A stretch of 64,000 nucleotides of DNA from Arbacia lixula (taxonomy: Eukaryota > Echinodermata > Echinoidea > Arbacioida > Arbaciidae). The notes beneath the pieces are model-generated. The model saw nothing but the letters and a program-made list of their open reading frames with translations. It had not been told where the DNA came from and ran no database searches. The DNA lies in assembly GCA_963669155.1 (NCBI GenBank), contig OZ022580.1, positions 19,181,736 through 19,245,735 of the forward strand, read 5' to 3'. The position numbers were made by a program, and so were the translations under genes. Shown one piece after another: positions 1 to 63,727 of the stretch. Position 1 is the stretch's first letter; the number at the start of each line of letters is the position of its first letter.

Positions 1-200
1 TAATATTGTAAGCCATAGGACACATGTTATCTTTAAAAGAAAACTACGAACGATGGATAGGCCTACATTTATATTAATTTAAGAGTAAACACTGATCAAA
101 TCACACGAATTGAAGTCTCATGAGCATCGATGTCTCATAAGAAAGTATGAGTGAGATATATCACTGTAGCTGTTATATGATGAAACGGACAAATATATAT

Positions 201-286
201 CTTAGTATATGATATTGATACTACACCATCGCAGGGGGAAACTACATCGATGTCTGGTAATGATGTAAATGCTGTTGCTTCGGTCT
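201..286 (-). pseudogene. Intronic relic of the 5' half of a HYR exon
   Basis: On the minus strand, CACAG is followed at 286 by a frame reading TEATAFTS, then SPCDGVVSISYTK. This aligns with the live exon: D/E-x-E-A-x-x-F-T at the start, then CD-x-VVS-x-S. A two-codon gap lies before the cysteine. The split codon G|AG keeps phase 1 as in the live exon. At DNA level ctgcgatg and tgtagtatca are shared with the live exon. Homology fades after about 201, and no 3' half or donor follows, so the relic is truncated. The frame stays open past the relic, to a TGA at 135-137. The same relic recurs in every intron. It is closest to a live HYR in the diverged copy at 62,691-62,768. Confidence 0.78.
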
Positions 287-638
287 CTGTGCGGTGATAT
301 CGGACACATATTTTTTTAAAGATAATTACGAACAATATATAGACCTATATTTACTTTTACATGAACCTAGAAGTAACAGTTTTTCGGGAGATTTTTACAT
401 ATCATTTATCACTACTTAGAACAGAAGGCTCATCGAAACTTGTGTAGTAAATAACCATTAAATCTAACAAGGTACAACAGTTCCTCAAACTTACGTAATC
501 TGTTCTTAAAGTTAAAGAAATGAATTTGAAATGATTATCCGTATTCTGCCGTTAAATCAAAACATGTTATACAGGAAAGCTTAAAAGCAAGTCAAGTAGA
601 CTGAGTATGGATCACTACCATGATTGCTCTTTACGAAC

Positions 639-717
639 CAGTAATGTTGACATTAGAATAATCTATTTCGTCCTTTCCGGCAGTGTCTTATGCACAACAT
701 TTGACTATAAAGACTTT
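639..717 (-). pseudogene. Intronic relic of the 3' half of a HYR exon, with donor site
   Basis: Twenty-six codons on the minus strand align without gaps to the last 26 codons of the live HYR exon. The relic reads KVFIVKCCA, a TAA stop, DTAGKDEIDYSNVNIT, and ends at the same ATTACTG|GTTCGTAA exon-donor junction. The V-x-C-x-A-x-D-x-AG pattern is the usual end of a HYR domain. The stop replaces one residue and no acceptor or 5' half precedes it. Directly upstream in the sense of transcription is ATAATCTTTAAAAA, which resembles sequence upstream of the other acceptors, so an internal deletion probably removed the acceptor and the first half. It recurs 173 bp below the lower end of every live exon. 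Confidence 0.75.
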
Positions 718-811
718 TTAAAGATTATGGTGGTACGGACATGTAATCTATACATGTTACACGAGTAAGCTTTACGAGTAATAAAGAGATACCACTCCAC
801 TTATTACGAAC

Positions 812-1051
812 CAGTAATGGTGACTTGGAATTCTTGTTCCGCGCTATTAGAGGAGTTGTCTACTGCGGTACAGACGACGTTTGTCACACCAAGAGGAAAG
901 GTACTTCCCGAGGCCGGATTGCAGGTCACGGTAGGGGAGGAATCACAGTTGTCCATAGCAGTGACGCTGAATGATACTACAGCATCGCAGGAGCCATCAT
1001 CCGTAACTGCTGAGATGTTTTGCATGGCTGTGAATACCGGTGCCTCGTTAT
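812..1051 (-). CDS. HYR exon 1: 80-residue hyalin repeat, phase 1-1
   Basis: The exon encodes one HYR (hyalin repeat, Pfam PF02494) domain, an Ig-like module of secreted and cell-surface adhesion proteins. It opens D-N-E-A-P-V-F-T, has cysteines at domain residues 22, 36, 44 and 61, carries DNC at 34-36 and P-A-S-G-S-T-F-P at 46-53, and ends F-x-V-T-I-T. There are two N-glycosylation sequons, N12-I-S and N66-S-S. The acceptor is ttacactcacag on the minus strand with a CTTAC branch-like motif about 17 nt before its AG; the donor is ACTG|GTTCGT. Both cuts are phase 1, so adjacent exons give V-T-I-T-D-N-E-A-P, the normal HYR-HYR junction. I chose these ends over the longer open frame (804-1085, starting MCPM), because the extra residues are not HYR-like. 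No start codon, signal peptide or stop of the parent gene is visible. Later entries give only what is particular to that unit and to the intron at its lower-coordinate side. Confidence 0.9.
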
Positions 1052-1880
1052 CTGTGAGTGTAATATTGTAAGCCATAGGACACATGTTATCTTTAAAAGA
1101 AAACTACGAACGATGGATAGGCCTACATTTATATTAATTTAAGAGTAAACACTGATCAAATCACACGAATTGAAGTCTCATGAGCATCGATGTCTCATAA
1201 GAAAGTATGAGTGAGATATATAACTGTAGCTGTTATATGATGAAACGGACAAATATATATCTTAGTATATGATATTGATACTACACCATCGCAGGGGGAA
1301 ACTACATCGATGTCTGGTAATGATGTAAATGCTGTTGCTTCGGTCTCTGTGCGGTGATATCGGACACATATTTTTTTAAAGATAATTACGAACAATATAT
1401 AGACCTATACTCACTTTTATATTAACCTAGGAGTAACGGTTTTTCGGGAGATTTTTACATATCATTTATCACTACTTAGAACAGAAGGCTCATCGAACAT
1501 GTCGAAACTTGTGTAGTAAATAACCATTAAATATAACAAGGTATAACAGTTCCTCAAACTTACGTAATCTGTTCTTAAAGTTAAAGAAATGAATTTGAAA
1601 TGATTATCCGTATTCTGCCGTTAAATCAAAACATGTTATACAGGAAAGCTTAAAAGCAAGTCAAGTAGACTGAGTATGGATCACTACCATGATTGCTCTT
1701 TACGAACCAGTAATGTTGACATTAGAATAATCTATTTCGTCCTTTCCGGCAGTGTCTTATGCACAACATTTGACTATAAAGACTTTTTAAAGATTATGGT
1801 GGTACGGACATCTAATCTATACATGTTACACGAGTAAGCTTTACCAGTAATAAAGAGATACCACTCCACTTATTACGAAC

Positions 1881-2120
1881 CAGTAATGGTGACTTGGAAT
1901 TCTTGTTCCGCGCTATTAGAGGAGTTGTCTACTGCGGTACAGACGACGTTTGTCACACCAAGAGGAAAGGTACTTCCCGAGGCCGGATTGCAGGTCACGG
2001 TAGGGGAGGAATCACAGTTGTCCATAGCAGTGACGCTGAATGATACTACAGCATCGCAGGAGCCATCATCCGTAACTGCTGAGATGTTTTGCATGGCTGT
2101 GAATACCGGTGCCTCGTTAT
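1881..2120 (-). CDS. HYR exon 2
   Basis: Same domain as exon 1. The intron below it (1052-1880, 829 bp) is the longest in the array, with an extra 9 bp (catgtcgaa) at 1498-1506. It is a mosaic: haplotype A on the left, haplotype B on the right. Confidence 0.9.
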
Positions 2121-2939
2121 CTGTGAGTGTAATATTGTAAGCCATAGGACACATGTTATCTTTAAAAGAAAACTACGAACGATGGATAGGCCTACATTTA
2201 TATTAATTTAAGAGTAAACACTGATCAAATCACACGAATTGAAGTCTCATGAGCATCGATGTCTCATAAGAAAGTATGAGTGAGATATATCACTGTAGCT
2301 GTTATATGATGAAACGGACAAATATATATCTTAGTATATGATATTGATACTACACCATCGCAGGGGGAAACTACATCGATGTCTGGTAATGATGTAAATG
2401 CTGTTGCTTCGGTCTCTGTGCGGTGATATCGGACACATATTTTTTTAAAGATAATTACGAACAATATATAGACCTATACTCACTTTTATATTAACCTAGG
2501 AGTAACGGTTTTTCGGGAGATTTTTACATATCATTTATCACTACTTAGAACAGAAGGCTCATCGAAACTTGTGTAGTAAATAACCATTGAATATTACATG
2601 GTATAACATTTCCTAAAACTTCGTAATCTCTTCTTAAAGTTAAAGAAATGAATTTGAAATGATTATCCATATTCTGCCGTTAAATCAAAACATGTTATAC
2701 AGGAAAGCTTAAAAGCAATTTAAGTACACTAAGTATGGATCACTACCATGATTGCTCTTTACGAACCAGTAATGTTGACATTAGAATAATCTATTTCGTC
2801 CTTTCCGGCAGTGTCTTATGCACAACATTTGACTATAAAGACTTTTTAAAGATTATGGTGGTACGGACATGTAATCTATACATGTTACACGAGTAAGCTT
2901 TACGAGTAATAAAGAGATACCACTCCACTTATTACGAAC

Positions 2940-3179
2940 CAGTAATGGTGACTTGGAATTCTTGTTCCGCGCTATTAGAGGAGTTGTCTACTGCGGTACA
3001 GACGACGTTTGTCACACCAAGAGGAAAGGTACTTCCCGAGGCCGGATTGCAGGTCACGGTAGGGGAGGAATCACAGTTGTCCATAGCAGTGACGCTGAAT
3101 GATACTACAGCATCGCAGGAGCCATCATCCGTAACTGCTGAGATGTTTTGCATGGCTGTGAATACCGGTGCCTCGTTAT
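2940..3179 (-). CDS. HYR exon 3
   Basis: Same domain as exon 1. The intron below (2121-2939) is a standard 819-bp haplotype A copy throughout, with cattgaatattacatgg and caatttaagtacactaag as its right-half markers. Confidence 0.9.
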
Positions 3180-3998
3180 CTGTGAGTGTAATATTGTAAG
3201 CCATAGGACACATGTTATCTTTAAAAGAAAACTACAACCGATGGATAGGCCTACATTTATATTAATTTAAGAGTAAACACTGATCAAATCACATGAATTG
3301 AAGTCTCATGAGCATCGATGTCTCATAAGAAAGTATGAGTGAGATATATCACTATAGCTGTTATATGATGAAACGGACAAATATATATCTTAGTATATGA
3401 TATTGATACTACACCATCGCAGGGGGAAACTACATCGATGTCTGGTAATGATGTAAATGCTGTTGCTTCGGTCTCTGTGCGGTGATATCGGACACATATT
3501 TTTTAAAGATAATTACGAACAATATATAGACCTATATTCACTTTTACATTAACCTAGGAGTAACGGTTTTTCGGGAGATTTTTACATATCATTTATCACT
3601 ACTTAGAACAGAAGGCTCATCGAAACTTGTGTAGTAAATAACCATTAAATATTACAAGGTATAACAGTTCCTCAAACTTACGTAATCTGTTCTTAAAGTT
3701 AAAGAAATGAATTTGAAATGATTATCCGTATTCTGCCGTTAAATCAAAACATGTTATACAGGAAAGCTTAAAAGCAAGTCAAGTAGACTGAGTATGGATC
3801 ACTACCATGATTGCTCTTTACGAACCAGTAATCTTGACATAAGAATAATCTATTTCGTCCTTTCCGGCAGTGTCTTATGCACAACATTTGACTATAAAGA
3901 CTTTTTAAAGATTATGGTGGTACGGACATGTAATCTATACATGTTACACGAGTAAGCTTTACGAGTAATAAAGAGATACCACTCCACTTATTACGAAC

Positions 3999-4238
3999 CA
4001 GTAATGGTGACTTGGAATTCTTGTTCCGCGCTATTAGAGGAGTTGTCTACTGCGGTACAGACGACGTTTGTCACACCAAGAGGAAAGGTACTTCCCGAGG
4101 CCGGATTGCAGGTCACGGTAGGGGAGGAATCACAGTTGTCCATAGCAGTGACGCTGAATGATACTACAGCATCGCAGGAGCCATCATCCGTAACTGCTGA
4201 GATGTTTTGCATGGCTGTGAATACCGGTGCCTCGTTAT
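3999..4238 (-). CDS. HYR exon 4
   Basis: Same domain. The intron below (3180-3998) is haplotype B throughout: actacaaccgatgg, cacatgaatt, cactatagc, six T before aaagataat, caagtcaagtagactgag. It also carries aatcttgacataag, shared only with the introns below exons 8 and 58. Confidence 0.9.
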
Positions 4239-5057
4239 CTGTGAGTGTAATATTGTAAGCCATAGGACACATGTTATCTTTAAAAGAAAACTACGAACGA
4301 TGGATAGGCCTACATTTATATTAATTTAAGAGTAAACACTGATCAAATCACACGAATTGAAGTCTCATGAGCATCGATGTCTCATAAGAAAGTATGAGTG
4401 AGATATATCACTGTAGCTGTTATATGATGAAACGGACAAATATATATCTTAGTATATGATATTGATACTACACCATCGCAGGGGGAAACTACATCGATGT
4501 CTGGTAATGATGTAAATGCTGTTGCTTCGGTCTCTGTGCGGTGATATCGGACACATATTTTTTTAAAGATAATTACGAACAATATATAGACCTATATTTA
4601 CTTTTACATGAACCTAGAAGTAACAGTTTTTCGGGAGATTTTTACATATCATTTATCACTACTTAGAACAGAAGGCTCATCGAAACTTGTGTAGTAAATA
4701 ACCATTGAATATTACATGGTATAACATTTCCTAAAACTTCGTAATCTCTTCTTAAAGTTAAAGAAATGAATTTGAAATGATTATCCATATTCTGCCGTTA
4801 AATCAAAACATGTTATACAGGAAAGCTTAAAAGCAAGTCAAGTAGACTGAGTATGGATCACTACCATGATTGCTCTTTACGAACCAGTAATGTTGACATT
4901 AGAATAATCTATTTCGTCCTTTCCGGCAGTGTCTTATGCACAACATTTGACTATAAAGACTTTTTAAAGATTATGGTGGTACGGACATCTAATCTATACA
5001 TGTTACACGAGTAAGCTTTACGAGTAATAAAGAGATACCACTCCACTTATTACAAAC

Positions 5058-5297
5058 CAGTAATGGTGACTTGGAATTCTTGTTCCGCGCTATTAGAGGA
5101 GTTGTCTACTGCGGTACAGACGACGTTTGTCACACCAAGAGGAAAGGTACTTCCCGAGGCCGGATTGCAGGTCACGGTAGGGGAGGAATCACAGTTGTCC
5201 ATAGCAGTGACGCTGAATGATACTACAGCATCGCAGGAGCCATCATCCGTAACTGCTGAGATGTTTTGCATGGCTGTGAATACCGGTGCCTCGTTAT
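5058..5297 (-). CDS. HYR exon 5, donor variant GTTTGT
   Basis: Same domain. A g-to-a change at 5054 turns the donor from GTTCGT into GTTTGT, shared only with exon 9. The intron below (4239-5057) has the rare atgaacctagaag middle and an A-type right half ending in the B marker caagtcaagtagactgag. Confidence 0.88.
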
Positions 5298-6116
5298 CTG
5301 TGAGTGTAATATTGTAAGCCATAGGACACATGTTATCTTTAAAAGAAAACTACAACCGATGGATAGGCCTACATTTATATTAATTTAAGAGTAAACACTG
5401 ATCAAATCACATGAATTGAAGTCTCATGAGCATCGATGTCTCATAAGAAAGTATGAGTGAGATATATCACTATAGCTGTTATATGATGAAACGGACAAAT
5501 ATATATCTTAGTATATGATATTGATACTACACCATCGCAGGGGGAAACTACATCGATGTCTGGTAATGATGTAAATGCTGTTGCTTCGGTCTCTGTGCGG
5601 TGATATCGGACACATATTTTTTAAAGATAATTACGAACAATATATAGACCTATATTCACTTTTACATTAACCTAGGAGTAACGGTTTTTCGGGAGATTTT
5701 TACATATCATTTATCACTACTTAGAACAGAAGGCTCATCGAAACTTGTGTAGTAAATAACCATTAAATATAACAAGGTATAACAGTTCCTCAAACTTACG
5801 TAATCTGTTCTTAAAGTTAAAGAAATGAATTTGAAATGATTATCCGTATTCTGCCGTTAAATCAAAACATGTTATACAGGAAAGCTTAAAAGCAAGTCAA
5901 GTAGACTGAGTATGGATCACTACCATGATTGCTCTTTACGAACCAGTAATGTTGACATTAGAATAATCTATTTCGTCCTTTCCGGCAGTGTCTTATGCAC
6001 AACATTTGACTATAAAGACTTTTTAAAGATTATGGTGGTACGGACATGTAATCTATACATGTTACACGAGTAAGCTTTACGAGTAATAAAGAGATACCAC
6101 TCCACTTATTACGAAC

Positions 6117-6356
6117 CAGTAATGGTGACTTGGAATTCTTGTTCCGCGCTATTAGAGGAGTTGTCTACTGCGGTACAGACGACGTTTGTCACACCAAGAG
6201 GAAAGGTACTTCCCGAGGCCGGATTGCAGGTCACGGTAGGGGAGGAATCACAGTTGTCCATAGCAGTGACGCTGAATGATACTACAGCATCGCAGGAGCC
6301 ATCATCCGTAACTGCTGAGATGTTTTGCATGGCTGTGAATACCGGTGCCTCGTTAT
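6117..6356 (-). CDS. HYR exon 6
   Basis: Same domain. The intron below (5298-6116) is haplotype B throughout. Confidence 0.9.
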
Positions 6357-7175
6357 CTGTGAGTGTAATATTGTAAGCCATAGGACACATGTTATCTTTA
6401 AAAGAAAACTACGAACGATGGATAGGCCTACATTTATATTAGTTTAAGAGTAAACACTGATCAAATCACACGAATTGAAGTCTCATGAGCATCGATGTCT
6501 CATAAGAAAGTATGAGTGAGATATATCACTGTAGCTGTTATATGATGAAACGGACAAATATATATCTTAGTATATGATATTGATACTACACCATCGCAGG
6601 GGGAAACTACATCGATGTCTGGTAATGATGTAAATGCTGTTGCTTCGGTCTCTGTGCGGTGATATCGGACACATATTTTTTTAAAGATAATTACGAACAA
6701 TATATAGACCTATACTCACTTTTATATTAACCTAGGAGTAACGGTTTTTCGGGAGATTTTTACATATCATTTATCACTACTTAGAACAGAAGGCTCATCG
6801 AAACTTGTGTAGTAAATAACCATTGAATATTACATGGTATAACATTTCCTAAAACTTCGTAATCTCTTCTTAAAGTTAAAGAAATGAATTTGAAATGATT
6901 ATCCATATTCTGCCGTTAAATCAAAACATGTTATACAGGAAAGCTTAAAAGCAATTTAAGTACACTAAGTATGGATCACTACCATGATTGCTCTTTACGA
7001 ACCAGTAATGTTGACATTAGAATAATCTATTTCGTCCTTTCCGGCAGTGTCTTATGCACAACATTTGACTATAAAGACTTTTTAAAGATTATGGTGGTAC
7101 GGACATCTAATCTATACATGTTACACGAGTAAGCTTTACGAGTAATAAAGAGATACCACTCCACTTATTACGAAC

Positions 7176-7415
7176 CAGTAATGGTGACTTGGAATTCTTG
7201 TTCCGCGCTATTAGAGGAGTTGTCTACTGCGGTACAGACGACGTTTGTCACACCAAGAGGAAAGGTACTTCCCGAGGCCGGATTGCAGGTCACGGTAGGG
7301 GAGGAATCACAGTTGTCCATAGCAGTGACGCTGAATGATACTACAGCATCGCAGGAGCCATCATCCGTAACTGCTGAGATGTTTTGCATGGCTGTGAATA
7401 CCGGTGCCTCGTTAT
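7176..7415 (-). CDS. HYR exon 7
   Basis: Same domain. The intron below (6357-7175) is haplotype A with one private change, tatattagtttaag near 6436-6449. Confidence 0.9.
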
Positions 7416-8232
7416 CTGTGAGTGTAATATTGTAAGCCATAGGACACATGTTATCTTTAAAAGAAAACTACAACCGATGGATAGGCCTACATTTATATTA
7501 ATTTAAGAGTGAACACTGATCAAATCACATGAATTGAAGTCTCATGAGCATCGATGTCTCATAAGAAAGTATGAGTGAGATATATCACTATAGCTGTTAT
7601 ATGATGAAACGGACAAATATATATCTTAGTATATGATATTGATACTACACCATCGCAGGGGGAAACTACATCGATGTCTGGTAATGATGTAAATGCTGTT
7701 GCTTCGGTCTCTGTGCGGTGATATCGGACACATATTTTTTAAAGATAATTACGAACAATATATAGACCTATATTCACTTTTACATTAACCTAGGAGTAAC
7801 GGTTTTTCGGGAGATTTTTACATATCATTTATCACTACTTAGAACAGAAGGCTCATCGAAACTTGTGTAGTAAATAACCATTAAATATTACAAGGTATAA
7901 CAGTTCCTCAAACTTACGTAATCTGTTCTTAAAGTTAAAGAAATGAATTTGAAATGATTATCCGTATTCTGCCGTTAAATCAAAACATGTTATACAGGAA
8001 AGCTTAAAAGCAAGTCAAGTAGACTGAGTATGGATCACTACCATGATTGCTCTTTACGAACCAGTAATCTTGACATAAGAATAATCTATTTCGTCCTTTC
8101 CGGCAGTGTCTTATGCACAACATTTGACTATAAAGACTTTTTAAAGATTATGGTGGTACGGACATAATCTATACATGTTACACGAGTAAGCTTTACGAGT
8201 AATAAAGAGATACCACTCCACTTATTACGAAC

Positions 8233-8472
8233 CAGTAATGGTGACTTGGAATTCTTGTTCCGCGCTATTAGAGGAGTTGTCTACTGCGGTACAGACGACG
8301 TTTGTCACACCAAGAGGAAAGGTACTTCCCGAGGCCGGATTGCAGGTCACGGTAGGGGAGGAATCACAGTTGTCCATAGCAGTGACGCTGAATGATACTA
8401 CAGCATCGCAGGAGCCATCATCCGTAACTGCTGAGATGTTTTGCATGGCTGTGAATACCGGTGCCTCGTTAT
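8233..8472 (-). CDS. HYR exon 8
   Basis: Same domain. The intron below (7416-8232, 817 bp) is haplotype B with aatcttgacataag, as below exon 4. A 2-bp deletion gives gacataatc near 8161, which explains the 1,057-bp spacing. Confidence 0.9.
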
Positions 8473-9291
8473 CTGTGAGTGTAATATTGTAAGCCATAGG
8501 ACACATGTTATCTTTAAAAGAAAACTACGAACGATGGATAGGCCTACATTTATATTAATTTAAGAGTAAACACTGATCAAATCACACGAATTGAAGTCTC
8601 ATGAGCATCGATGTCTCATAAGAAAGTATGAGTGAGATATATCACTGTAGCTGTTATATGATGAAACGGACAAATATATATCTTAGTATATGATATTGAT
8701 ACTACACCATCGCAGGGGGAAACTACATCGATGTCTGGTAATGATGTAAATGCTGTTGCTTCGGTCTCTGTGCGGTGATATCGGACACATATTTTTTTAA
8801 AGATAATTACGAACAATATATAGACCTATATTTACTTTTACATGAACCTAGAAGTAACAGTTTTTCGGGAGATTTTTACATATCATTTATCACTACTTAG
8901 AACAGAAGGCTCATCGAAACTTGTGTAGTAAATAACCATTGAATATTACATGGTATAACATTTCCTAAAACTTCGTAATCTCTTCTTAAAGTTAAAGAAA
9001 TGAATTTGAAATGATTATCCATATTCTGCCGTTAAATCAAAACATGTTATACAGGAAAGCTTAAAAGCAAGTCAAGTAGACTGAGTATGGATCACTACCA
9101 TGATTGCTCTTTACGAACCAGTAATGTTGACATTAGAATAATCTATTTCGTCCTTTCCGGCAGTGTCTTATGCACAACATTTGACTATAAAGACTTTTTA
9201 AAGATTATGGTGGTACGGACATCTAATCTATACATGTTACACGAGTAAGCTTTACGAGTAATAAAGAGATACCACTCCACTTATTACAAAC

Positions 9292-9531
9292 CAGTAATGG
9301 TGACTTGGAATTCTTGTTCCGCGCTATTAGAGGAGTTGTCTACTGCGGTACAGACGACGTTTGTCACACCAAGAGGAAAGGTACTTCCCGAGGCCGGATT
9401 GCAGGTCACGGTAGGGGAGGAATCACAGTTGTCCATAGCAGTGACGCTGAATGATACTACAGCATCGCAGGAGCCATCATCCGTAACTGCTGAGATGTTT
9501 TGCATGGCTGTGAATACCGGTGCCTCGTTAT
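9292..9531 (-). CDS. HYR exon 9, donor variant GTTTGT
   Basis: Same domain, with the GTTTGT donor of exon 5 (change at 9288). The intron below (8473-9291) matches the intron below exon 5, including atgaacctagaag. Exons 5 and 9 are 4,234 bp apart and are corresponding copies of a four-unit block. Confidence 0.88.
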
Positions 9532-10350
9532 CTGTGAGTGTAATATTGTAAGCCATAGGACACATGTTATCTTTAAAAGAAAACTACAACCGATGGATAG
9601 GCCTACATTTATATTAATTTAAGAGTAAACACTGATCAAATCACATGAATTGAAGTCTCATGAGCATCGATGTCTCATAAGAAAGTATGAGTGAGATATA
9701 TCACTATAGCTGTTATATGATGAAACGGACAAATATATATCTTAGTATATGATATTGATACTACACCATCGCAGGGGGAAACTACATCGATGTCTGGTAA
9801 TGATGTAAATGCTGTTGCTTCGGTCTCTGTGCGGTGATATCGGACACATATTTTTTAAAGATAATTACGAACAATATATAGACCTATATTCACTTTTACA
9901 TTAACCTAGGAGTAACGGTTTTTCGGGAGATTTTTACATATCATTTATCACTACTTAGAACAGAAGGCTCATCGAAACTTGTGTAGTAAATAACCATTAA
10001 ATATAACAAGGTATAACAGTTCCTCAAACTTACGTAATCTGTTCTTAAAGTTAAAGAAATGAATTTGAAATGATTATCCGTATTCTGCCGTTAAATCAAA
10101 ACATGTTATACAGGAAAGCTTAAAAGCAAGTCAAGTAGACTGAGTATGGATCACTACCATGATTGCTCTTTACGAACCAGTAATGTTGACATTAGAATAA
10201 TCTATTTCGTCCTTTCCGGCAGTGTCTTATGCACAACATTTGACTATAAAGACTTTTTAAAGATTATGGTGGTACGGACATCTAATCTATACATGTTACA
10301 CGAGTAAGCTTTACCAGTAATAAAGAGATACCACTCCACTTATTACGAAC

Positions 10351-10590
10351 CAGTAATGGTGACTTGGAATTCTTGTTCCGCGCTATTAGAGGAGTTGTCT
10401 ACTGCGGTACAGACGACGTTTGTCACACCAAGAGGAAAGGTACTTCCCGAGGCCGGATTGCAGGTCACGGTAGGGGAGGAATCACAGTTGTCCATAGCAG
10501 TGACGCTGAATGATACTACAGCATCGCAGGAGCCATCATCCGTAACTGCTGAGATGTTTTGCATGGCTGTGAATACCGGTGCCTCGTTAT
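10351..10590 (-). CDS. HYR exon 10
   Basis: Same domain. The intron below (9532-10350) is haplotype B, with gacatctaatc and tttaccagtaat near the exon. Confidence 0.9.
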
Positions 10591-11407
10591 CTGTGAGTGT
10601 AATATTGTAAGCCATAGGACACATGTTATCTTTAAAAGAAAACTACGAACGATGGATAGGCCTACATTTATATTAATTTAAGAGTAAACACTGATCAAAT
10701 CACACGAATTGAAGTCTCATGAGCATCGATGTCTCATAAGAAAGTATGAGTGAGATATATCACTGTAGCTGTTATATGATGAAACGGACAAATATATATC
10801 TTAGTATATGATATTGATACTACACCATCGCAGGGGGAAACTACATCGATGTCTGGTAATGATGTAAATGCTGTTGCTTCGGTCTCTGTGCGGTGATATC
10901 GGACACATATTTTTTTAAAGATAATTACGAACAATATATAGACCTATACTCACTTTTATATTAACCTAGGAGTAACGGTTTTTCGGGAGATTTTTACATA
11001 TCATTTATCACTACTTAGAACAGAAGGCTCATCGAAACTTGTGTAGTAAATAACCATTGAATATTACATGGTATAACATTTCCTAAAACTTCGTAATCTC
11101 TTCTTAAAGTTAAAGAAATGAATTTGAAATGATTATCCATATTCTGCCGTTAAATCAAAACATGTTATACAGGAAAGCTTAAAAGCAATTTAAGTACACT
11201 AAGTATGGATCACTACCATGATTGCTCTTTACGAACCAGTAATGTTGACATTAGAATAATCTATTTCGTCCTTTCCGGCAGTGTCTTATGCACAACATTT
11301 GACTATAAAGACTTTTTAAAGATTATGGTGGTACGGACATCTAATCTATACATGTTACACGAGTAAGCTTTACGAGTAATAAAGACTTTTTAAAGATTAT
11401 TACGAAC

Positions 11408-11647
11408 CAGTAATGGTGACTTGGAATTCTTGTTCCGCGCTATTAGAGGAGTTGTCTACTGCGGTACAGACGACGTTTGTCACACCAAGAGGAAAGGTAC
11501 TTCCCGAGGCCGGATTGCAGGTCACGGTAGGGGAGGAATCACAGTTGTCCATAGCAGTGACGCTGAATGATACTACAGCATCGCAGGAGCCATCATCCGT
11601 AACTGCTGAGATGTTTTGCATGGCTGTGAATACCGGTGCCTCGTTAT
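11408..11647 (-). CDS. HYR exon 11, with a replaced patch beside the donor
   Basis: Same domain. In the intron below (10591-11407, 817 bp, haplotype A) the usual agataccactccactta just past the donor is replaced by actttttaaagatta at about 11,385-11,399. That sequence normally occurs about 100 bp away in the same intron. The donor GTTCGTAATAA itself is intact. Confidence 0.9.
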
Positions 11648-12466
11648 CTGTGAGTGTAATATTGTAAGCCATAGGACACATGTTATCTTTAAAAGAAAAC
11701 TACAACCGATGGATAGGCCTACATTTATATTAATTTAAGAGTAAACACTGATCAAATCACATGAATTGAAGTCTCATGAGCATCGATGTCTCATAAGAAA
11801 GTATGAGTGAGATATATCACTATAGCTGTTATATGATGAAACGGACAAATATATATCTTAGTATATGATATTGATACTACACCATCGCAGGGGGAAACTA
11901 CATCGATGTCTGGTAATGATGTAAATGCTGTTGCTTCGGTCTCTGTGCGGTGATATCGGACACATATTTTTTAAAGATAATTACGAACAATATATAGACC
12001 TATATTCACTTTTACATTAACCTAGGAGTAACGGTTTTTCGGGAGATTTTTACATATCATTTATCACTACTTAGAACAGAAGGCTCATCGAAACTTGTGT
12101 AGTAAATAACCATTAAATATAACATGGTATAACAGTTCCTCAAACTTACGTAATCTGTTCTTAAAGTTAAAGAAATGAATTTGAAATGATTATCCGTATT
12201 CTGCCGTTAAATCAAAACATGTTATACAGGAAAGCTTAAAAGCAAGTCAAGTAGACTGAGTATGGATCACTACCATGATTGCTCTTTACGAACCAGTAAT
12301 GTTGACATTAGAATAATCTATTTCGTCCTTTCCGGCAGTGTCTTATGCACAACATTTGACTATAAAGACTTTTTAAAGATTATGGTGGTACGGACATCTA
12401 ATCTATACATGTTACACGAGTAAGCTTTACCAGTAATAAAGAGATACCACTCCACTTATTACGAAC

Positions 12467-12706
12467 CAGTAATGGTGACTTGGAATTCTTGTTCCGCGCT
12501 ATTAGAGGAGTTGTCTACTGCGGTACAGACGACGTTTGTCACACCAAGAGGAAAGGTACTTCCCGAGGCCGGATTGCAGGTCACGGTAGGGGAGGAATCA
12601 CAGTTGTCCATAGCAGTGACGCTGAATGATACTACAGCATCGCAGGAGCCATCATCCGTAACTGCTGAGATGTTTTGCATGGCTGTGAATACCGGTGCCT
12701 CGTTAT
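12467..12706 (-). CDS. HYR exon 12
   Basis: Same domain. The intron below (11648-12466) is haplotype B with a hybrid marker, aaatataacatgg, that combines B and A bases. Confidence 0.9.
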
Positions 12707-13525: not shown

Positions 13526-13765
13526 CAGTAATGGTGACTTGGAATTCTTGTTCCGCGCTATTAGAGGAGTTGTCTACTGCGGTACAGACGACGTTTGTCA
13601 CACCAAGAGGAAAGGTACTTCCCGAGGCCGGATTGCAGGTCACGGTAGGGGAGGAATCACAGTTGTCCATAGCAGTGACGCTGAATGATACTACAGCATC
13701 GCAGGAGCCATCATCCGTAACTGCTGAGATGTTTTGCATGGCTGTGAATACCGGTGCCTCGTTAT
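13526..13765 (-). CDS. HYR exon 13
   Basis: Same domain. The intron below (12707-13525) is haplotype A with a private base, gaattaaagtc near 12,823-12,833. Confidence 0.9.
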
Positions 13766-34701: not shown

Positions 34702-34941
34702 CAGTAATGGTGACTTGGAATTCTTGTTCCGCGCTATTAGAGGAGTTGTCTACTGCGGTACAGACGACGTTTGTCACACCAAGAGGAAAGGTACTTCCCG
34801 AGGCCGGATTGCAGGTCACGGTAGGGGAGGAATCACAGTTGTCCATAGCAGTGACGCTGAATGATACTACAGCATCACAGGAGCCATCATCCGTAACTGC
34901 TGAGATGTTTTGCATGGCTGTGAATACCGGTGCCTCGTTAT
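34702..34941 (-). CDS. HYR exon 33, with a synonymous change
   Basis: Same domain. A g-to-a change in gcatcacagg at about 34,877 makes the codon of Cys22 TGT in place of TGC. Only exon 53 shares it. The intron below (33883-34701) is haplotype A with aaagattatt. Confidence 0.9.
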
Positions 34942-41056: not shown

Positions 41057-41296
41057 CAGTAATGGTAACTTGGAATTCTTGTTCCGCGCTATTAGAGGAG
41101 CTGTCTACTGCGGTACAGACGACGTTTGTCACACCAAGAGGAAAGGTACTTCCCGAGGCCGGATTGCAGGTCACGGTAGGGGAGGAATCACAGTTGTCCA
41201 TAGCAGTGACGCTGAATGATACTACAGCATCGCAGGAGCCATCATCCGTAACTGCTGAGATGTTTTGCATGGCTGTGAATACCGGTGCCTCGTTAT
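41057..41296 (-). CDS. HYR exon 39, N66S variant that loses a sequon
   Basis: This is the most divergent exon inside the array. A change at 41,101 turns Asn66 into Ser, removing the N-S-S sequon. A second change at 41,067 is synonymous (Val77). The intron below (40238-41056) is the B sub-type with five more private bases (40,662, 40,790, 40,937, 40,964 and 41,011). The HYR frame, cysteines and splice sites are intact. Confidence 0.9.
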
Positions 41297-55879: not shown

Positions 55880-56119
55880 CAGTAATGGTGACTTGGAATT
55901 CTTGTTCCGCGCTATTAGAGGAGTTGTCTACTGCGGTACAGACGACGTTTGTCACACCAAGAGGAAAGGTACTTCCCGAGGCCGGATTGCAGGTCACGGT
56001 AGGGGAGGAATCACAGTTGTCCATAGCAGTGACGCTGAATGATACTACAGCATCACAGGAGCCATCATCCGTAACTGCTGAGATGTTTTGCATGGCTGTG
56101 AATACCGGTGCCTCGTTAT
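55880..56119 (-). CDS. HYR exon 53, with a synonymous change
   Basis: Same domain, with the Cys22 TGT codon shared only with exon 33, 21,178 bp away. The intron below (55061-55879) also matches, apart from a private aatacagag near 55,851. Confidence 0.9.
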
Positions 56120-56938
56120 CTGTGAGTGTAATATTGTAAGCCATAGGACACATGTTATCTTTAAAAGAAAACTACGAACGATGGATAGACCTACATTTAT
56201 ATTAATTTAAGAGTAAACACTGATCAAATCACACGAATTGAAGTCTCATGAGCATCGATGTCTCATAAGAAAGTATGAGTGAGATATATCACTGTAGCTG
56301 TTATATGATGAAACGGACAAATATATATCTTAGTATATGATATTGATACTACACCATCGCAGGGGGAAACTACATCGATGTCTGGTAATGATGTAAATGC
56401 TGTTGCTTCGGTCTCTGTGCGGTGATATCGGACACATATTTTTTTAAAGATAATTACGAACAATATATAGACCTATACTCACTTTTATATTAACCTAGGA
56501 GTAACGGTTTTTCGGGAGATTTTTACATATCATTTATCACTACTTAGAACAGAAGGCTCATCGAAACTTGTGTAGTAAATAACCATTGAATATTACATGG
56601 TATAACATTTCCTAAAACTTCGTAATCTCTTCTTAAAGTTAAAGAAATGAATTTGAAATGATTATCCATATTCTGCCGTTAAATCAAAACATGTTATACA
56701 GGAAAGCTTAAAAGCAATTTAAGTACACTAAGTATGGATCACTACCATGATTGCTCTTTACGAACCAGTAATGTTGACATTAGAATAATCTATTTCGTCC
56801 TTTCCGGCAGTGTCTTATGCACAACATTTGACTATAAAGACTTTTTAAAGATTATGGTGGTACGGACATGTAATCTATACATGTTACACGAGTAAGCTTT
56901 ACCAGTAATAAAGAGATACCACTCCACTTATTACGAAC

Positions 56939-57178
56939 CAGTAATGGTGACTTGGAATTCTTGTTCCGCGCTATTAGAGGAGTTGTCTACTGCGGTACAG
57001 ACGACGTTTGTCACACCAAGAGGAAAGGTACTTCCCGAGGCCGGATTGCAGGTCACGGTAGGGGAGGAATCACAGTTGTCCATAGCAGTGACGCTGAATG
57101 ATACTACAGCATCGCAGGAGCCATCATCCGTAACTGCTGAGATGTTTTGCATGGCTGTGAATACCGGTGCCTCGTTAT
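56939..57178 (-). CDS. HYR exon 54
   Basis: Same domain. The intron below (56120-56938) has gatagacctac and aaagataatt and corresponds to that of exon 34. Confidence 0.9.
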
Positions 57179-57997
57179 CTGTGAGTGTAATATTGTAAGC
57201 CATAGGACACATGTTATCTTTAAAAGAAAACTACAACCGATGGATAGACCTACATTTATATTAATTTAAGAGTAAACACTGATCAAATCACATGAATTGA
57301 AGTCTCATGAGCATCGATGTCTCATAAGAAAGTATTTGTGAGATATATCACTATAGCTGTTATATGATGAAACGGACAAATATATATCTTAGTATATTAT
57401 ATTGATACTACACTATCGCAGGGGGAAACTACATCGATGTTTGGTAATGATGTAAATGCTGTTGCTTCGGTCTCTGTGCGGTGATATCGGACACATATTT
57501 TTTAAAGATAATTACGAACAATATATAGACCTATATTCACTTTTACATTAACCTAGGAGTAACGGTTTTTCGGGAGATTTTTACATATCATTTATCACTA
57601 CTTAGAACAGAAGGCTCATCGAAACTTGTGTAGTAAATAACCATTAAATATAACAAGGTATAACAGTTCCTCAAACTTACGTAATCTGTTCTTAAAGTTA
57701 AAGAAATGAATTTGAAATGATTATCCGTATTCTGCCGTTAAATCAAAACATGTTATACAGGAAAGCTTAAAAGCAAGTCAAGTAGACTGAGTATGGATCA
57801 CTACCATGATTGCTCTTTACGAACCAGTAATGTTGACATTAGAATAATCTATTTCGTCCTTTCCGGCAGTGTCTTATGCACAACATTTGACTATAAAGAC
57901 TTTTTAAAGATTATGGTGGTACGGACATCTAATCTATACATGTTACACGAGTAAGCTTTACGAGTAATAAAGAGATACCACTCCACTTATTACGAAC

Positions 57998-58237
57998 CAG
58001 TAATGGTGACTTGGAATTCTTGTTCCGCGCTATTAGAGGAGTTGTCTACTGCGGTACAGACGACGTTTGTCACACCAAGAGGAAAGGTACTTCCCGAGGC
58101 CGGATTGCAGGTCACGGTAGGGGAGGAATCACAGTTGTCCATAGCAGTGACGCTGAATGATACTACAGCATCGCAGGAGCCATCATCCGTAACTGCTGAG
58201 ATGTTTTGCATGGCTGTGAATACCGGTGCCTCGTTAT
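57998..58237 (-). CDS. HYR exon 55
   Basis: Same domain. The intron below (57179-57997) is the B sub-type with cactatcgcag, as below exon 35. It differs near the exon (acgagtaat in place of accagtaat), which marks the right end of the copied block. Confidence 0.9.
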
Positions 58238-59056
58238 CTGTGAGTGTAATATTGTAAGCCATAGGACACATGTTATCTTTAAAAGAAAACTACGAACGAT
58301 GGATAGGCCTACATTTATATTAATTTAAGAGTAAACACTGATCAAATCACACGAATTGAAGTCTCATGAGCATCGATGTCTCATAAGAAAGTATGAGTGA
58401 GATATATCACTGTAGCTGTTATATGATGAAACGGACAAATATATATCTTAGTATATGATATTGATACTACACCATCGCAGGGGGAAACTACATCGATGTC
58501 TGGTAATGATGTAAATGCTGTTGCTTCGGTCTCTGTGCGGTGATATCGGACACATATTTTTTTAAAGATTATTACGAACAATATATAGACCTATACTCAC
58601 TTTTATATTAACCTAGGAGTAACGGTTTTTCGGGAGATTTTTACATATCATTTATCACTACTTAGAACAGAAGGCTCATCGAAACTTGTGTAGTAAATAA
58701 CCATTGAATATTACATGGTATAACATTTCCTAAAACTTCGTAATCTCTTCTTAAAGTTAAAGAAATGAATTTGAAATGATTATCCATATTCTGCCGTTAA
58801 ATCAAAACATGTTATACAGGAAAGCTTAAAAGCAATTTAAGTACACTAAGTATGGATCACTACCATGATTGCTCTTTACGAACCAGTAATGTTGACATTA
58901 GAATAATCTATTTCGTCCTTTCCGGCAGTGTCTTATGCACAACATTTGACTATAAAGACTTTTTAAAGATTATGGTGGTACGGACATGTAATCTATACAT
59001 GTTACACGAGTAAGCTTTACCAGTAATAAAGAGATACCACTCCACTTATTACGAAC

Positions 59057-59296
59057 CAGTAATGGTGACTTGGAATTCTTGTTCCGCGCTATTAGAGGAG
59101 TTGTCTACTGCGGTACAGACGACGTTTGTCACACCAAGAGGAAAGGTACTTCCCGAGGCCGGATTGCAGGTCACGGTAGGGGAGGAATCACAGTTGTCCA
59201 TAGCAGTGACGCTGAATGATACTACAGCATCGCAGGAGCCATCATCCGTAACTGCTGAGATGTTTTGCATGGCTGTGAATACCGGTGCCTCGTTAT
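59057..59296 (-). CDS. HYR exon 56
   Basis: Same domain. The intron below (58238-59056) is haplotype A with aaagattatt. It lacks the ggatcattacc and gagttagc markers of exon 36, so the long duplication does not reach this unit. Confidence 0.9.
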
Positions 59297-60116
59297 CTGT
59301 GAGTGTAATATTGTAAGCCATAGGACACATGTTATCTTTAAAAGAAAACTACGAACGATGGATAGGCCTACATTTATATTAATTTAAGAGTAAACACTGA
59401 TCAAATCACACGAATTGAAGTCTCATGAGCATCGATGTCTCATAAGAAAGTATGAGTGAGATATATCACTGTAGCTGTTATATGATGAAACGGACAAATA
59501 TATATCTTAGTATATGATATTGATACTACACCATCGCAGGGGGAAACTACATCGATGTCTGGTAATGATGTAAATGCTGTTGCTTCGGTCTCTGTGCGGT
59601 GATATCGGACACATATTTTTTTAAAGATAATTACGAACAATATATAGACCTATACTCACTTTTATATTAACCTAGGAGTAACGGTTTTTCGGGAGATTTT
59701 TACATATCATTTATCACTACTTAGAACAGAAGGCTCATCGAAACTTGTGTAGTAAATAACTATTAAATATAACAAGGTATAACAGTTCCTCAAACTTACG
59801 TAATCTGTTCTTAAAGTTAAAGAAATGAATTTGAAATGATTATCCGTATTCTGCCGTTAAATCAAAACATGTTATACAGGAAAGCTTAAAAGCAAGTCAA
59901 GTAGACTGAGTATGGATCACTACCATGATTGCTCTTTACGAACCAGTAATGTTGACATTAGAATAATCTATTTCGTCCTTTCCGGCAGTGTCTTATGCAC
60001 AACATTTGACTATAAAGACTTTTTAAAGATTATGGTGGTACGGACATCTAATCTATACATGTTACACGAGTAAGCTTTACCAGTAATAAAGAGATACCAC
60101 TCCACTTATTACGAAC

Positions 60117-60356
60117 CAGTAATGGTGACTTGGAATTCTTGTTCCGCGCTATTAGAGGAGTTGTCTACTGCGGTACAGACGACGTTTGTCACACCAAGAG
60201 GAAAGGTACTTCCCGAGGCCGGATTGCAGGTCACGGTAGGGGAGGAATCACAGTTGTCCATAGCAGTGACGCTGAATGATACTACAGCATCGCAGGAGCC
60301 ATCATCCGTAACTGCTGAGATGTTTTGCATGGCTGTGAATACCGGTGCCTCGTTAT
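60117..60356 (-). CDS. HYR exon 57
   Basis: Same domain. The intron below (59297-60116, 820 bp) has an A left half and a B right half (taactattaaatataacaa), like the intron below exon 2 at the other end of the window. Confidence 0.9.
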
Positions 60357-61175
60357 CTGTGAGTGTAATATTGTAAGCCATAGGACACATGTTATCTTTA
60401 AAAGAAAACTACAACCGATGGATAGGCCTACATTTATATTAATTTAAGAGTAAACACTGATCAAATCACATGAATTGAAGTCTCATGAGCATCGATGTCT
60501 CATAAGAAAGTATGAGTGAGATATATCACAATAGCTGTTATATGATGAAACGGACAAATATATATCTTAGTATATGATATTGATACTACACCATCGCAGG
60601 GGGAAACTACATCGATGTCTGGTAATGATGTAAATGCTGTTGCTTCGGTCTCTGTGCGGTGATATCGGACACATATTTTTTAAAGATAATTACGAACAAT
60701 ATATAGACCTATATTCACTTTTACATTAACCTAGGAGTAACGGTTTTTCGGGAGATTTTTACATATCATTTATCACTACTTAGAACAGAAGGCTCATCGA
60801 AACTTGTGTAGTAAATAACCATTAAATATTACAAGGTATAACAGTTCCTCAAACTTACGTAATCTGTTCTTAAAGTTAAAGAAATGAATTTGAAATGATT
60901 ATCCGTATTCTGCCGTTAAATCAAAACATGTTATACAGGAAAGCTTAAAAGCAAGTCAAGTAGACTGAGTATGGATCACTACCATGATTGCTCTTTACGA
61001 ACCAGTAATCTTGACATAAGAATAATCTATTTCGTCCTTTCCGGCAGTGTCTTATGCACAACATTTGACTATAAAGACTTTTTAAAGATTATGGTGGTAC
61101 GGACATGTAATCTATACATGTTACACGAGTAAGCTTTACGAGTAATAAAGAGATACCACTCCACTTATTACGAAC

Positions 61176-61415
61176 CAGTAATGGTGACTTGGAATTCTTG
61201 TTCCGCGCTATTAGAGGAGTTGTCTACTGCGGTACAGACGACGTTTGTCACACCAAGAGGAAAGGTACTTCCCGAGGCCGGATTGCAGGTCACGGTAGGG
61301 GAGGAATCACAGTTGTCCATAGCAGTGACGCTGAATGATACTACAGCATCGCAGGAGCCATCATCCGTAACTGCTGAGATGTTTTGCATGGCTGTGAATA
61401 CCGGTGCCTCGTTAT
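61176..61415 (-). CDS. HYR exon 58
   Basis: Same domain. The intron below (60357-61175) is haplotype B with aatcttgacataag, as below exons 4 and 8, and a private cacaatagc near 60,530. Confidence 0.9.
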
Positions 61416-62234
61416 CTGTGAGTGTAATATTGTAAGCCATAGGACACATGTTATCTTTAAAAGAAAACTACGAACGATGGATAGGCCTACATTTATATTA
61501 ATTTAAGAGTAAACACTGATCAAATCACACGAATTGAAGTCTCATGAGCATCGATGTCTCATAAGAAAGTATGAGTGAGATATATCACTGTAGCTGTTAT
61601 ATGATGAAACGGACAAATATATATCTTAGTATATGATATTGATACTACACCATCGCAGGGGGAAACTACATCGATGTCTGGTAATGATGTAAATGCTGTT
61701 GCTTCGGTCTCTGTGCGGTGATATCGGACACATATTTTTTTAAAGATTATTACGAACAATATATAGACCTATACTCACTTTTATATTAACCTAGGAGTAA
61801 CGGTTTTTCGGGAGATTTTTACATATCATTTATCACTACTTAGAACAGAAGGCTCATCGAAACTTGTGTAGTAAATAACCATTGAATATTACATGGTATA
61901 ACATTTCCTAAAACTTCGTAATCTCTTCTTAAAGTTAAAGAAATGAATTTGAAATGATTATCCATATTCTGCCGTTAAATCAAAACATGTTATACAGGAA
62001 AGCTTAAAAGCAATTTAAGTACACTAAGTATGGATCACTACCATGATTGCTCTTTACGAACCAGTAATGTTGACATTAGAATAATCTATTTCGTCCTTTC
62101 CGGCAGTGTCTTATGCACAACATTTGACTATAAAGACTTTTTAAAGATTATGGTGGTACGGACATCTAATCTATACATGTTACACGAGTAAGCTTTACCA
62201 GTAATAAAGAGATACCACTCCACTTATTACGAAC

Positions 62235-62474
62235 CAGTAATGGTGACTTGGAATTCTTGTTCCGCGCTATTAGAGGAGTTGTCTACTGCGGTACAGACGA
62301 CGTTTGTCACACCAAGAGGAAAGGTACTTCCCGAGGCCGGATTGCAGGTCACGGTAGGGGAGGAATCACAGTTGTCCATAGCAGTGACGCTGAATGATAC
62401 TACAGCATCGCAGGAGCCATTATCCGTAACTGCTGAGATGTTTTGCATGGCTGTGAATACCGGTGCCTCGTCAT
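62235..62474 (-). CDS. HYR exon 59, transitional
   Basis: The domain differs from the array consensus at two residues, N2D and D19N, caused by changes at 62,472 and 62,421. Both bases are those of the diverged exon 60, so this exon is where the homogenised array meets its old edge. The intron below (61416-62234) is a normal haplotype A copy. Confidence 0.9.
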
Positions 62475-62690
62475 CTGTGAGTGTAATATTGTAAGCCATA
62501 GGACACATGTTATCTTTAAAAGAAAACTACGAACGATGGATAGGCCTACGTCTATATTAACCTAAGAGTACACATTGATCAAATCACAGAAATTGAACTC
62601 TCATGAGCATCGATGTCTCATAAGAAAGTGTGAGTAAAATATATCACTATAGTTGTAATATGATGAGACGGAACAATATGTATTTTAGTA

Positions 62691-62768
62691 TGTTATAGTG
62701 ATACTACAGCATCGCAGGGGAAACTACATCGATGTCTGGTAATGATGTAAATGCTGGTGCTTCAATCT
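62691..62768 (-). pseudogene. Diverged copy of the intronic 5'-half HYR relic
   Basis: After a CACAG-type acceptor (AG at 62,770-62,769) the frame reads E-I-E-A-P-A-F-T-S. The HYR proline, changed to Thr in the other units, is still present. Bases 62,699-62,718 match the live exon exactly for 20 bases (972-991 in exon 1). One G is missing from the ggggg run of other units, so the frame breaks and soon meets TAG. This copy is the clearest evidence that the relic was once a real HYR exon. Confidence 0.8.
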
Positions 62769-63120
62769 CTGTGTGGTGATATCGAAAATATTTTTTTAAA
62801 GATTATTACGAACAATATAAATAGACCTATATTCACTTTTACATTAACCTAGGAGTAACGTTTTTTCGGGAGAATTTTACCATATCATTGATCACTATAT
62901 GGAAAAGAAGGCTCATCAATCTTGTGTAGTAAATAACCATTAAATATTACAAGGTATAACAGTTCCTCAAACTTACTTAATCCCTTCTGAAAGGTAAAGA
63001 AATTAAATTGAAATGATTATCTATATTCAGCCGTTAAATTAAAATATGTTATACAGGAAAGCATAAAAGCAATTCAAGTAGATTGAGTTTGGATCACTAC
63101 ATTGATTGCTCTTTAGGAAC

Positions 63121-63199
63121 CAGTAATGTTGACATTAGAATAATCTATTCCGTCCTTTCCGGCAGTGTCTTATGGACAACATTTGACTATAAAGACTTT
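63121..63199 (-). pseudogene. Diverged copy of the intronic 3'-half HYR relic
   Basis: Same 26-codon relic as at 639-717, including the in-frame TAA, so the stop predates the amplification of the array. Its donor has decayed to GTTCCT, while the live exons keep GTTCGT. Confidence 0.72.
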
Positions 63200-63291
63200 T
63201 TAAAGATTATGGTAGTACGAATATCTAATCTACATGTTACTCGAGTAAGCTTTACCAGTAATAAAGAGATACCACTCCACTTATTACGAAC

Positions 63292-63531
63292 CAGTAATGG
63301 TGACTTGGAATTCTTGTTGAGCGCTATTAGAGGAGTTGTCTACTGCGGTACAGACGACGTTTGTCACACCAAGAGGAAAGGTACTTCCCGAGGCCGGATT
63401 GCAGGTCACGGTAGGGGAGGAATCACAGTTGTCCATAGCAGTGACAGTGAAAGTTACAGCAGCACTGCAATTGCCATTATCCGTAACTGCTGAGATGTTT
63501 TGTATGGCTGTGAATACCGGTGCCTCGTCAT
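63292..63531 (-). CDS. HYR exon 60, the most diverged and most 5' in the gene
   Basis: Open 240-bp phase 1-1 exon with acceptor cgcccacag and donor GTTCGT. Nine residues differ from the consensus: N2D, M10I, D19N, S21N, D23S, V25A, S27T, S29T and E72Q. All four cysteines remain, and an N-C-S sequon appears at 21-23. The differences cluster in the first part of the domain and at residue 72. Bases 63,321-63,445 are identical to the array consensus, synonymous sites included, although the introns on both sides are diverged. A gene-conversion tract from the array is likely. Transcription would enter the array through this exon. Confidence 0.9.
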
Positions 63532-63727
63532 CTGTGGGCGTAATATTGTAAACCATAGGACATAGGTTATCTTTAAAAGAAAACTACAAACGATGGATAG
63601 GCCTACATCTATATTAACCTAAGAGTAAAAATTGATCAAATCACATAAAATTGAAATCTCTTGAGCATCGACATCTCTTAAGAAAGTATGAGTGAGATAT
63701 ATCACTATAGTTGTTATATGGTGAGAC
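63532..63727 (-). other. Partial intron at the right edge of the array
   Basis: Diverged copy of the intron segment that lies upstream of each HYR acceptor, from taatattgtaaaccatagg to about gttatatggtgagac. It follows the unit order until about 63,727, just before the position of the 5'-half relic, and then stops matching. Confidence 0.85.

Follow-up and report, generated by a model that had tools for sequence, protein, structure and literature searches.

A homogenised array of HYR exons in the sea urchin Arbacia lixula and the large membrane protein gene to which it probably belongs

A 64,000-nucleotide stretch of the Arbacia lixula genome (assembly GCA_963669155.1, contig OZ022580.1, here C5; C5:19181736-19245735, hereafter the window) carries a tandem array of near-identical exons encoding HYR domains. 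We propose, with a probability of roughly three in four, that the array is part of one minus-strand gene of ~176 kb, running from C5:19250830 to about 19075128, whose product would be a type I membrane protein with an HYR arm. From the N-terminus, the product would consist of a signal peptide and ~108 HYR domains (~8,640 residues), followed by EGF, NIDO, AMOP-like, VWD, C8-3 (mucin-4 type) and Ig-like domains and some 36 EGF-like matches. A second block of NIDO, AMOP-like, VWD-like, C8-3, Ig and EGF-like parts would come next, then a short serine/threonine-rich (S/T-rich) mucin-like exon and a SEA-like piece and, at the C-terminus, a single transmembrane helix with a short tail that contains tyrosine. 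The proposal draws on computed exon integrity, coding constraint, domain matches, agreement in phase at the first junctions and a duplicate locus.

Sixty HYR exons of 240 nt each, all on the minus strand, lie ~1,059 bp apart across the window. An earlier note on this DNA had described them as sixty open phase 1-1 exons, and blastn returned the same sixty as full-length matches with zero gaps; codons 2-80 are free of stops in each. Start-to-start spacing is 1,057-1,060 bp, with a single exception of 1,069. The consensus domain matches the HYR profile PF02494 at E 2.9e-10 (40.8 bits, where the curated cut-off is 21.7), with exon residues 2-80 aligned on positions 2-81 of the 81 in the profile, which bears out the assignment made by the note. 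Near-identity, which had also been claimed, holds for most exons: 55 of the 60 are identical in DNA (five distinct sequences overall in the 240-nt register) and 57 encode the identical 80-residue protein, units 7 and 27 showing synonymous differences only. It does not extend to unit 0 at the right array edge (window position 63727), which is clearly divergent, with nine amino-acid changes, one silent change and a mosaic structure containing a 125-nt identical tract. Nor does it extend to complete units, as the 59 present comprise 46 distinct sequences, chiefly through intron variants.

The array passes the left edge of the window, as had been anticipated. Four further type-1 units lie there, so that the complete array has 64 units, 60 of which encode the identical protein; one more identical domain just upstream of the array brings the copies with the same 80 residues to 61. 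Adjoining it downstream is a second array with HYR exons of another kind (type 2, C5:19159k-19177k, main period 721-724 bp), which has 25 exons encoding 20 distinct proteins and includes two 530-bp units and one 671-bp unit. Older, mixed HYR exons lie beyond. Altogether, 111 full HYR exons (110 of 240 nt, one of 249 nt), all on the minus strand, were found at 19144869-19248395. Scanning both strands with the profile yielded 112 matches below 1e-3, the surplus one being a 23-residue piece. The figure of 111 is a lower bound because our own HYR profile is narrow, and domains on contig C17 score weakly with it. The assembly spans 607 Mb in 590 contigs, C5 is 29.2 Mb long, and the 264 kb comprising the window and its surroundings contain zero Ns.

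Splice borders were assessed with a generic matrix, the frequencies of which were supplied from general knowledge. A GT is present at the in-phase donor in 110 of the 111 exons and an AG acceptor in 109, and the donor G/GTTCGT (the slash marks the exon border) is common to 98. One exon is without a donor and two others are without an acceptor, leaving 108 usable HYR exons. The common borders described in the earlier note are kept throughout the window array, though they score weakly on this matrix, the acceptor ranking 8 of the 57 AGs in the unit. A better-scoring donor (unit position 278) and acceptor (1022) were rejected because the exon between them would include TAA TAA after the HYR frame. 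The possibility that every unit is a small gene of its own (a 99-residue frame) was also dropped; no signal peptide was seen in that frame by eye, and the variant-free stretch described below, which encloses the exon plus its borders, opposes it as well. As all HYR exons are phase 1-1, skipping, gain or loss of units keeps the frame.

Variation within the main array was compared over 57 units (unit 2 to unit 58). Variable sites number 3 of 240 in the exon and 71 of 819 in the intron, and a minor variant is common at 0 of 240 exon sites and at 32 of 819 intron sites (p 4e-4, sites taken as independent). The longest stretch free of common variants, 332 bp, comprises the exon with ~55 bp on its acceptor side and ~35 bp on its donor side. 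Because neighbouring variants are linked, distinct patterns were also counted; among 29 patterns seen in at least two units, one falls in the exon (p 0.006). In the type-2 array (21 units; 3 of 24, of unusual length, were left out), exons have a diversity of 0.028 and introns one of 0.136; gaps occur in 0 of 240 exon columns and in 43 of 484 intron columns, and the protein is altered by 19 of the 32 exon changes. At the duplicate locus (26 units), exon diversity is about half that of the introns (0.030 versus 0.056).

Between exons, mean nonsynonymous divergence (dN) is 0.215, mean synonymous divergence (dS) 0.472 and mean dN/dS 0.46, all taken over 229 exon pairs, out of 300 drawn at random, for which dS exceeded 0.15. 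Parsimony on the 67 distinct exons of both loci gave 532 changes, from which ~11 stops would be expected, a rough expectation because exchange between units inflates the change count. Codons 2-80 contain zero stops in the 111 exons here and zero in 29 duplicate exons; two stops occur at the junction codon, in both exons that have lost the acceptor (P of 2 or fewer, 9e-4). These comparisons support the view that the HYR exons are under purifying selection, with a weaker signal in the duplicate locus, and the array accordingly looks like used exons rather than satellite DNA. A frame without constraint, as in non-coding satellite, is not what was found.

The candidate signal-peptide exon upstream of the arrays matches the HYR exons in phase and is conserved in the duplicate locus. 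A crude first-exon scan of 175.9 kb, which detects phase-1 first exons, yielded a single exon (two ATGs of the same exon) under the thresholds used. At the other end of the HYR run, the junctions from the last HYR exon to a cysteine-rich exon, an EGF domain and a NIDO domain are all phase 1 at the best-scoring sites, in a check that covered these exons. An EGF profile built from 12 frames of the region gave 39 matches below 1e-3, all on the minus strand, with 36 of them within 19126397-19095165; the Pfam search of this run covered two of the 36 plus one further frame. TSP and CUB gave no match in the stem pieces scanned, and the NIDO/AMOP stretch had no convincing match among solved structures (best E 0.49). 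Coordinates and scores are collected in Table 1. The claim of the earlier note that the window alone would give at least 4,800 near-identical HYR residues, if its exons are joined, gains support from the signal peptide, the selection on the exons and the stem exons on the same strand.

Table 1. Features of the array and of the proposed gene. Positions written with two dots are window positions; all others are C5 positions. E values are given without the letter E.
Feature	Position	Strand	Remarks
Type-1 HYR array, ~1,059-bp period, 60 of 64 units	1..63727	-	other 4 units left of window
Unit 0 HYR exon, array edge, divergent	63292..63531	-	rightmost in window; 16 nt differences in 10 codons
Unit 1 HYR exon	62235..62474	-	2 nt differences, both common to unit 0
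Unit 7 HYR exon	55880..56119	-	single silent difference
Unit 21 HYR exon	41057..41296	-	N66S plus one silent change
Unit 27 HYR exon	34702..34941	-	single silent difference, matching that of unit 7
Unit 59 HYR exon	812..1051	-	leftmost complete exon in window; equals consensus
Piece resembling HYR exon 3' end, in intron, unit 0 copy	63118..63183 (approximate)	-	found in consensus unit
Remnant of HYR exon 5' end, in intron, unit 0 copy	62698..62769 (approximate)	-	found in consensus unit
Upstream sequence unlike the unit; putative intron between unit 0 and HYR exons outside window	63728..64000	-	
Signal-peptide exon MAKMEYDGWVFALLIITGLGVCCA	19250830-19250758	-	73 coding nt, ends phase 1, good donor
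EGF-like match	19144243	-	own profile, 3.1e-5; ~0.6 kb past last HYR exon
Cysteine-rich exon	19142394	-	no Pfam match
EGF_CA	downstream of HYR run	-	1.6e-7
Further EGF-like match	19140809	-	
First NIDO	downstream of HYR run	-	7.5e-9, 36.3 bits versus 25, joined exon pieces
VWD, first block		-	5.1e-6, over cut-off; followed by C8-3_MUC4
C8-3_MUC4, first block		-	4.9e-7, over cut-off
Ig-like pair, first block		-	7.7e-6
Second NIDO	after EGF run	-	3.3e-7
AMOP-like piece, second block		-	0.019, under cut-off
VWD, second block		-	0.0013, under cut-off
C8-3_MUC4, second block		-	4e-8, over cut-off
Ig-like domain, second block		-	9.2e-8
EGF-like piece, second block		-	weak matches only
S/T-rich frame	near transmembrane helix	-	44% S/T
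Transmembrane-like helix GAIIGIALGTVGAVLVFMISCGCCMYMI	19075426-19075343	-	read by eye; then basic stretch, tail frame with stop

A duplicate of the locus lies at C5:18906-18936k, ~310 kb away start to start, where 27 exons share over 90% identity with the type-1 exon. Between the two loci, the consensus introns differ at 18 of 818 aligned sites, and the duplicate has the same signal-peptide exon as the main locus, with donor GTAAGT. The duplicate also has a NIDO match, at 18839840, over the profile range covered by the one at 19090456 in the main locus. Among the matches listed, NIDO lies ~56 kb downstream of the last HYR in the duplicate, compared with 54 kb at the main locus. As the array, the signal-peptide exon and NIDO all recur, the whole gene, and not only a satellite, was probably duplicated. 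Two units of the duplicate locus are 1,165 bp long.

Exchange between units of the main array can be read from their introns. Two intron haplotypes recombine, with all four combinations found in 224 of 496 pairs of common sites. Distinguished at 15 chosen sites, the haplotypes alternate towards the left end, with 15 changes in 18 steps, and two units in this alternation are mixed; over window positions ~1-15000 (units 45-58) they change almost unit by unit. Units 0 and 1 differ at 93 alignment columns, while interior pairs average 13.9. Interior units are thus more alike than the edge and exchange sequence with one another, as in concerted evolution, and the recombining haplotypes together with the divergent mosaic edge unit form the pattern left by unequal crossing-over plus gene conversion. 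In the mechanism we propose, these two processes would keep the units alike, purifying selection would preserve the exons and splice borders while the introns drift, and the symmetrical exons would let units come and go in frame. The copy number in the assembly could be off, or could vary among individuals.

The intron of the consensus unit itself contains two pieces resembling the HYR exon, the end piece coming before the start piece. In local alignment the end piece scored 31 and the start piece 49, where the best of 300 shuffles scored 38; the start piece is above all 300 shuffles and the end piece alone is not. From the order of the pieces, the 1,059-bp unit may derive from several smaller ancestral units.

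Several observations weigh against one intact, fully used gene. The splicing of these exons and their joining in a single transcript are read from genomic sequence. Three of the 111 exons have a broken splice site (C5:19246370, 19152402 and 19151704), apparently as dying copies, and the donor CTG/GTTCGT is weak, ranking 9 of the 75 GTs in the unit. Constraint in the main array depends on few exon variants; its 57.3 synonymous sites are too few to distinguish from the intron rate, and a circular-shift test gave a weaker result, with 60 of 1,059 positions equally invariant, all overlapping the exon. At the duplicate locus 22 of 30 exon changes are protein-altering, which opposes strong constraint there. 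The joined stem pieces were cut by hand, and within NIDO, AMOP-like and VWD several junctions fall off the best-scoring sites or are without solution. Neither the AMOP-like exon of the first block nor the SEA-like pieces picked out by eye had a match in Pfam, and the AMOP-like and VWD pieces of the second block stayed under their cut-offs (Table 1). The stem junctions and the reading of the transmembrane helix by eye reduce the probability of one gene, and the region might contain two.

If there are two, a secreted hyalin-like protein made of HYR domains throughout would end near 19144.8k and a mucin-4-like membrane gene with NIDO, VWD and EGF would follow on the same strand. Hyalin has been reported as HYR modules only (PMC3723904; this and the other papers are cited from excerpts), and with the profile used the HYR run ends sharply at 19144869. 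Against this arrangement, the last HYR exon is phase 1 and its donor is good (7.6 bits), the next candidate exon starts in matching phase, and an EGF-like match stands ~0.6 kb beyond the run (Table 1). The 175.9-kb scan for phase-1 first exons found no second one resembling a signal peptide, and the similar distance from HYR to NIDO in the duplicate, among the matches listed, also favours a single gene. We consider two adjacent genes unlikely. A different doubt concerns usage within a real gene, most array exons being skipped or variably spliced to give length isoforms instead of one giant molecule. Symmetrical exons, weak donors and near-identical introns would allow skipping with the frame preserved, whereas purifying selection on the exons implies that they are used; such isoforms are a serious possibility, though distinctly the less probable outcome. 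It is very improbable that the array is a coding satellite or pseudogene, an HYR exon and intron amplified with nil or trivial expression. High unit identity, the divergent array edge, exchange between units and weak splice scores would all fit such an origin, but in three arrays the exons show less variation than the introns, dN/dS averages 0.46 and all 111 exon bodies are stop-free, which argues against satellite, as do the signal peptide upstream of the array and the transmembrane segment downstream of it. Tandem arrays are also prone to assembly error, and the two longest exact repeats at lags above 1 kb measure 3,303 and 2,536 bp. The earlier note had accepted that a much shorter array inflated by the assembler would overturn its claim. 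The 46 distinct sequences among 59 units, the two recombining intron haplotypes, the divergent edge units, the second array, the duplicate locus and the N-free 264 kb within a 29.2-Mb contig leave such an artefact with very little probability.

The earlier note had compared the array with sea-urchin hyalin, which is described as consisting exclusively of HYR modules (PMC3723904), with an extracellular adhesion role (PMC3723904, PMC9382459). Tandem HYR modules are indeed shared, and the comparison stands to that extent; it is incomplete in that, under the single-gene model, the present gene would add EGF, NIDO, VWD, C8-3 and a transmembrane stem, and so a mucin-4-like membrane stem in place of an all-HYR protein. 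Among egg receptors, EBR1_5 combines seven HYR domains with a SEA and a transmembrane domain (PMC5521101) and EBR1 has CUB-TSP and HYR repeats (PMC8403831); a surface or adhesion role has been discussed for HYR-bearing egg receptors (PMC5521101, PMC8403831). Like both of them, the proposed product would be a large surface or egg protein with HYR domains in tandem; it differs from EBR1_5 in having ~108 HYR rather than seven and a NIDO/VWD/C8-3/EGF stem. The architecture of mucin-4 is NIDO-AMOP-VWD-C8-3-EGF-transmembrane. Like it, the present gene matches NIDO, VWD and a mucin-4-like C8-3 and would have a large N-terminal repeat region and a membrane anchor; unlike it, the N-terminal repeat is an array of folded HYR exons and not an S/T-rich mucin repeat, and the stem block occurs twice.

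Separately, HYR arrays, stems of the mucin-4 type and homogenised exons in tandem have all been described. The interior units and divergent edge of the array are like those of abalone VERL, the repeats of which are of the ZP type. In VERL, which has 22 repeats of ~153 residues, repeats 3-22 are homogenised, while the edge repeats 1 and 2 evolve independently and adjoin 3-22 without intervening introns (PMC2704960). Human LPA kringle IV-2 likewise consists of tandem exon units of an extracellular domain, although the domain itself differs: its exons reportedly show little variation, with repeat types present in a large share of the copies (PMC4378929), and the 5.6-kb unit occurs in 1-40 copies per allele (PMC11462820). 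In the MaSp2 silk genes of Argiope, iterated exons are accompanied by homogenised introns, some of them alternating (PMC9779670). The two intron types at the left end of the present array alternate similarly, though only in part, and the repeats are HYR here and silk there. No description of this combination and size was found in the titles and abstract openings of the open-access papers listed on HYR, hyalin and echinoderms, which is weak evidence of novelty.

The HYR exon is predicted to fold as an all-beta domain with six strands of three or more residues (mean predicted local distance difference test score, pLDDT, 91.6; model input of 12 aligned sequences), and no convincing match to it was found among solved structures (best E 2.3). 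The HYR arm of ~8,640 residues would have a net charge of ~-1,057 and 276 potential N-glycan sequons, and lysine and arginine are absent from its first 5,337 residues. HYR domains on C17 average 1.3 of these residues each (10 domains from eight loci, taken at E 0.01 and a length of at least 65); some bacterial HYR domains likewise have neither. The product is most likely a long, acidic, potentially N-glycosylated adhesive arm, its HYR domains strung like beads, which a mucin-4-like stem would raise above the cell surface. Such a combination of arm and stem fits a role in surface coat or adhesion, as reported for hyalin, and knowledge of the family suggests a part in a surface coat or in cell-cell or cell-matrix contact, be it in egg coat or epithelium.

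More tentatively, and at somewhat less than even odds, we envisage a satellite-like protein arm in which a folded adhesion domain, rather than a mucin peptide, is the homogenised repeat on a mucin-4-type stem, in a protein of ~12,000 residues by our own estimate. If so, HYR copy number may differ widely among individuals and give the cell coat a heritable polymorphism in length. The stretch free of lysine and arginine would be nearly invisible to trypsin-based proteomics; such proteins are perhaps under-reported, being blind to trypsin and difficult for short-read annotation. The proposed gene would unite hyalin-type HYR arrays with mucin-4-type membrane stems and would offer a natural system in which a hundred-odd near-identical exons are kept in frame, spliced and homogenised, with identical exons next to marked introns so that exchanges between units are readable.

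Upstream of the gene, at C5:19255k, frames resembling fragments of LINE-type reverse transcriptase were seen by eye. Tandem Repeats Finder, with a longest covered period of 500, below the unit length, reported no repeat, and Rfam gave nothing in window positions 56000-64000, the part searched. Prokaryote contigs contained three related loci at 46-53% identity. Viral contigs gave a single match of 17 residues and no occurrence of an exact 28-base pattern, and no relatives were found in phages. Across the genome, a first look gave 1,343 candidate HYR loci, of which 150 were scored. Among the matches listed, further HYR clusters lie at C17:1.68-1.74 Mb, C6:4.94-5.13 Mb, C6:18.93-19.02 Mb and C11:7.16-7.18 Mb. 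Ten domains of the C17 cluster are all different, in a set in which identical ones would have been merged, and the C11 cluster is regularly spaced near 741 bp. A third NIDO match, at C6:2311095-2311331, covers profile range 100-184, as in both C5 loci, and is possibly another member of this stem family.

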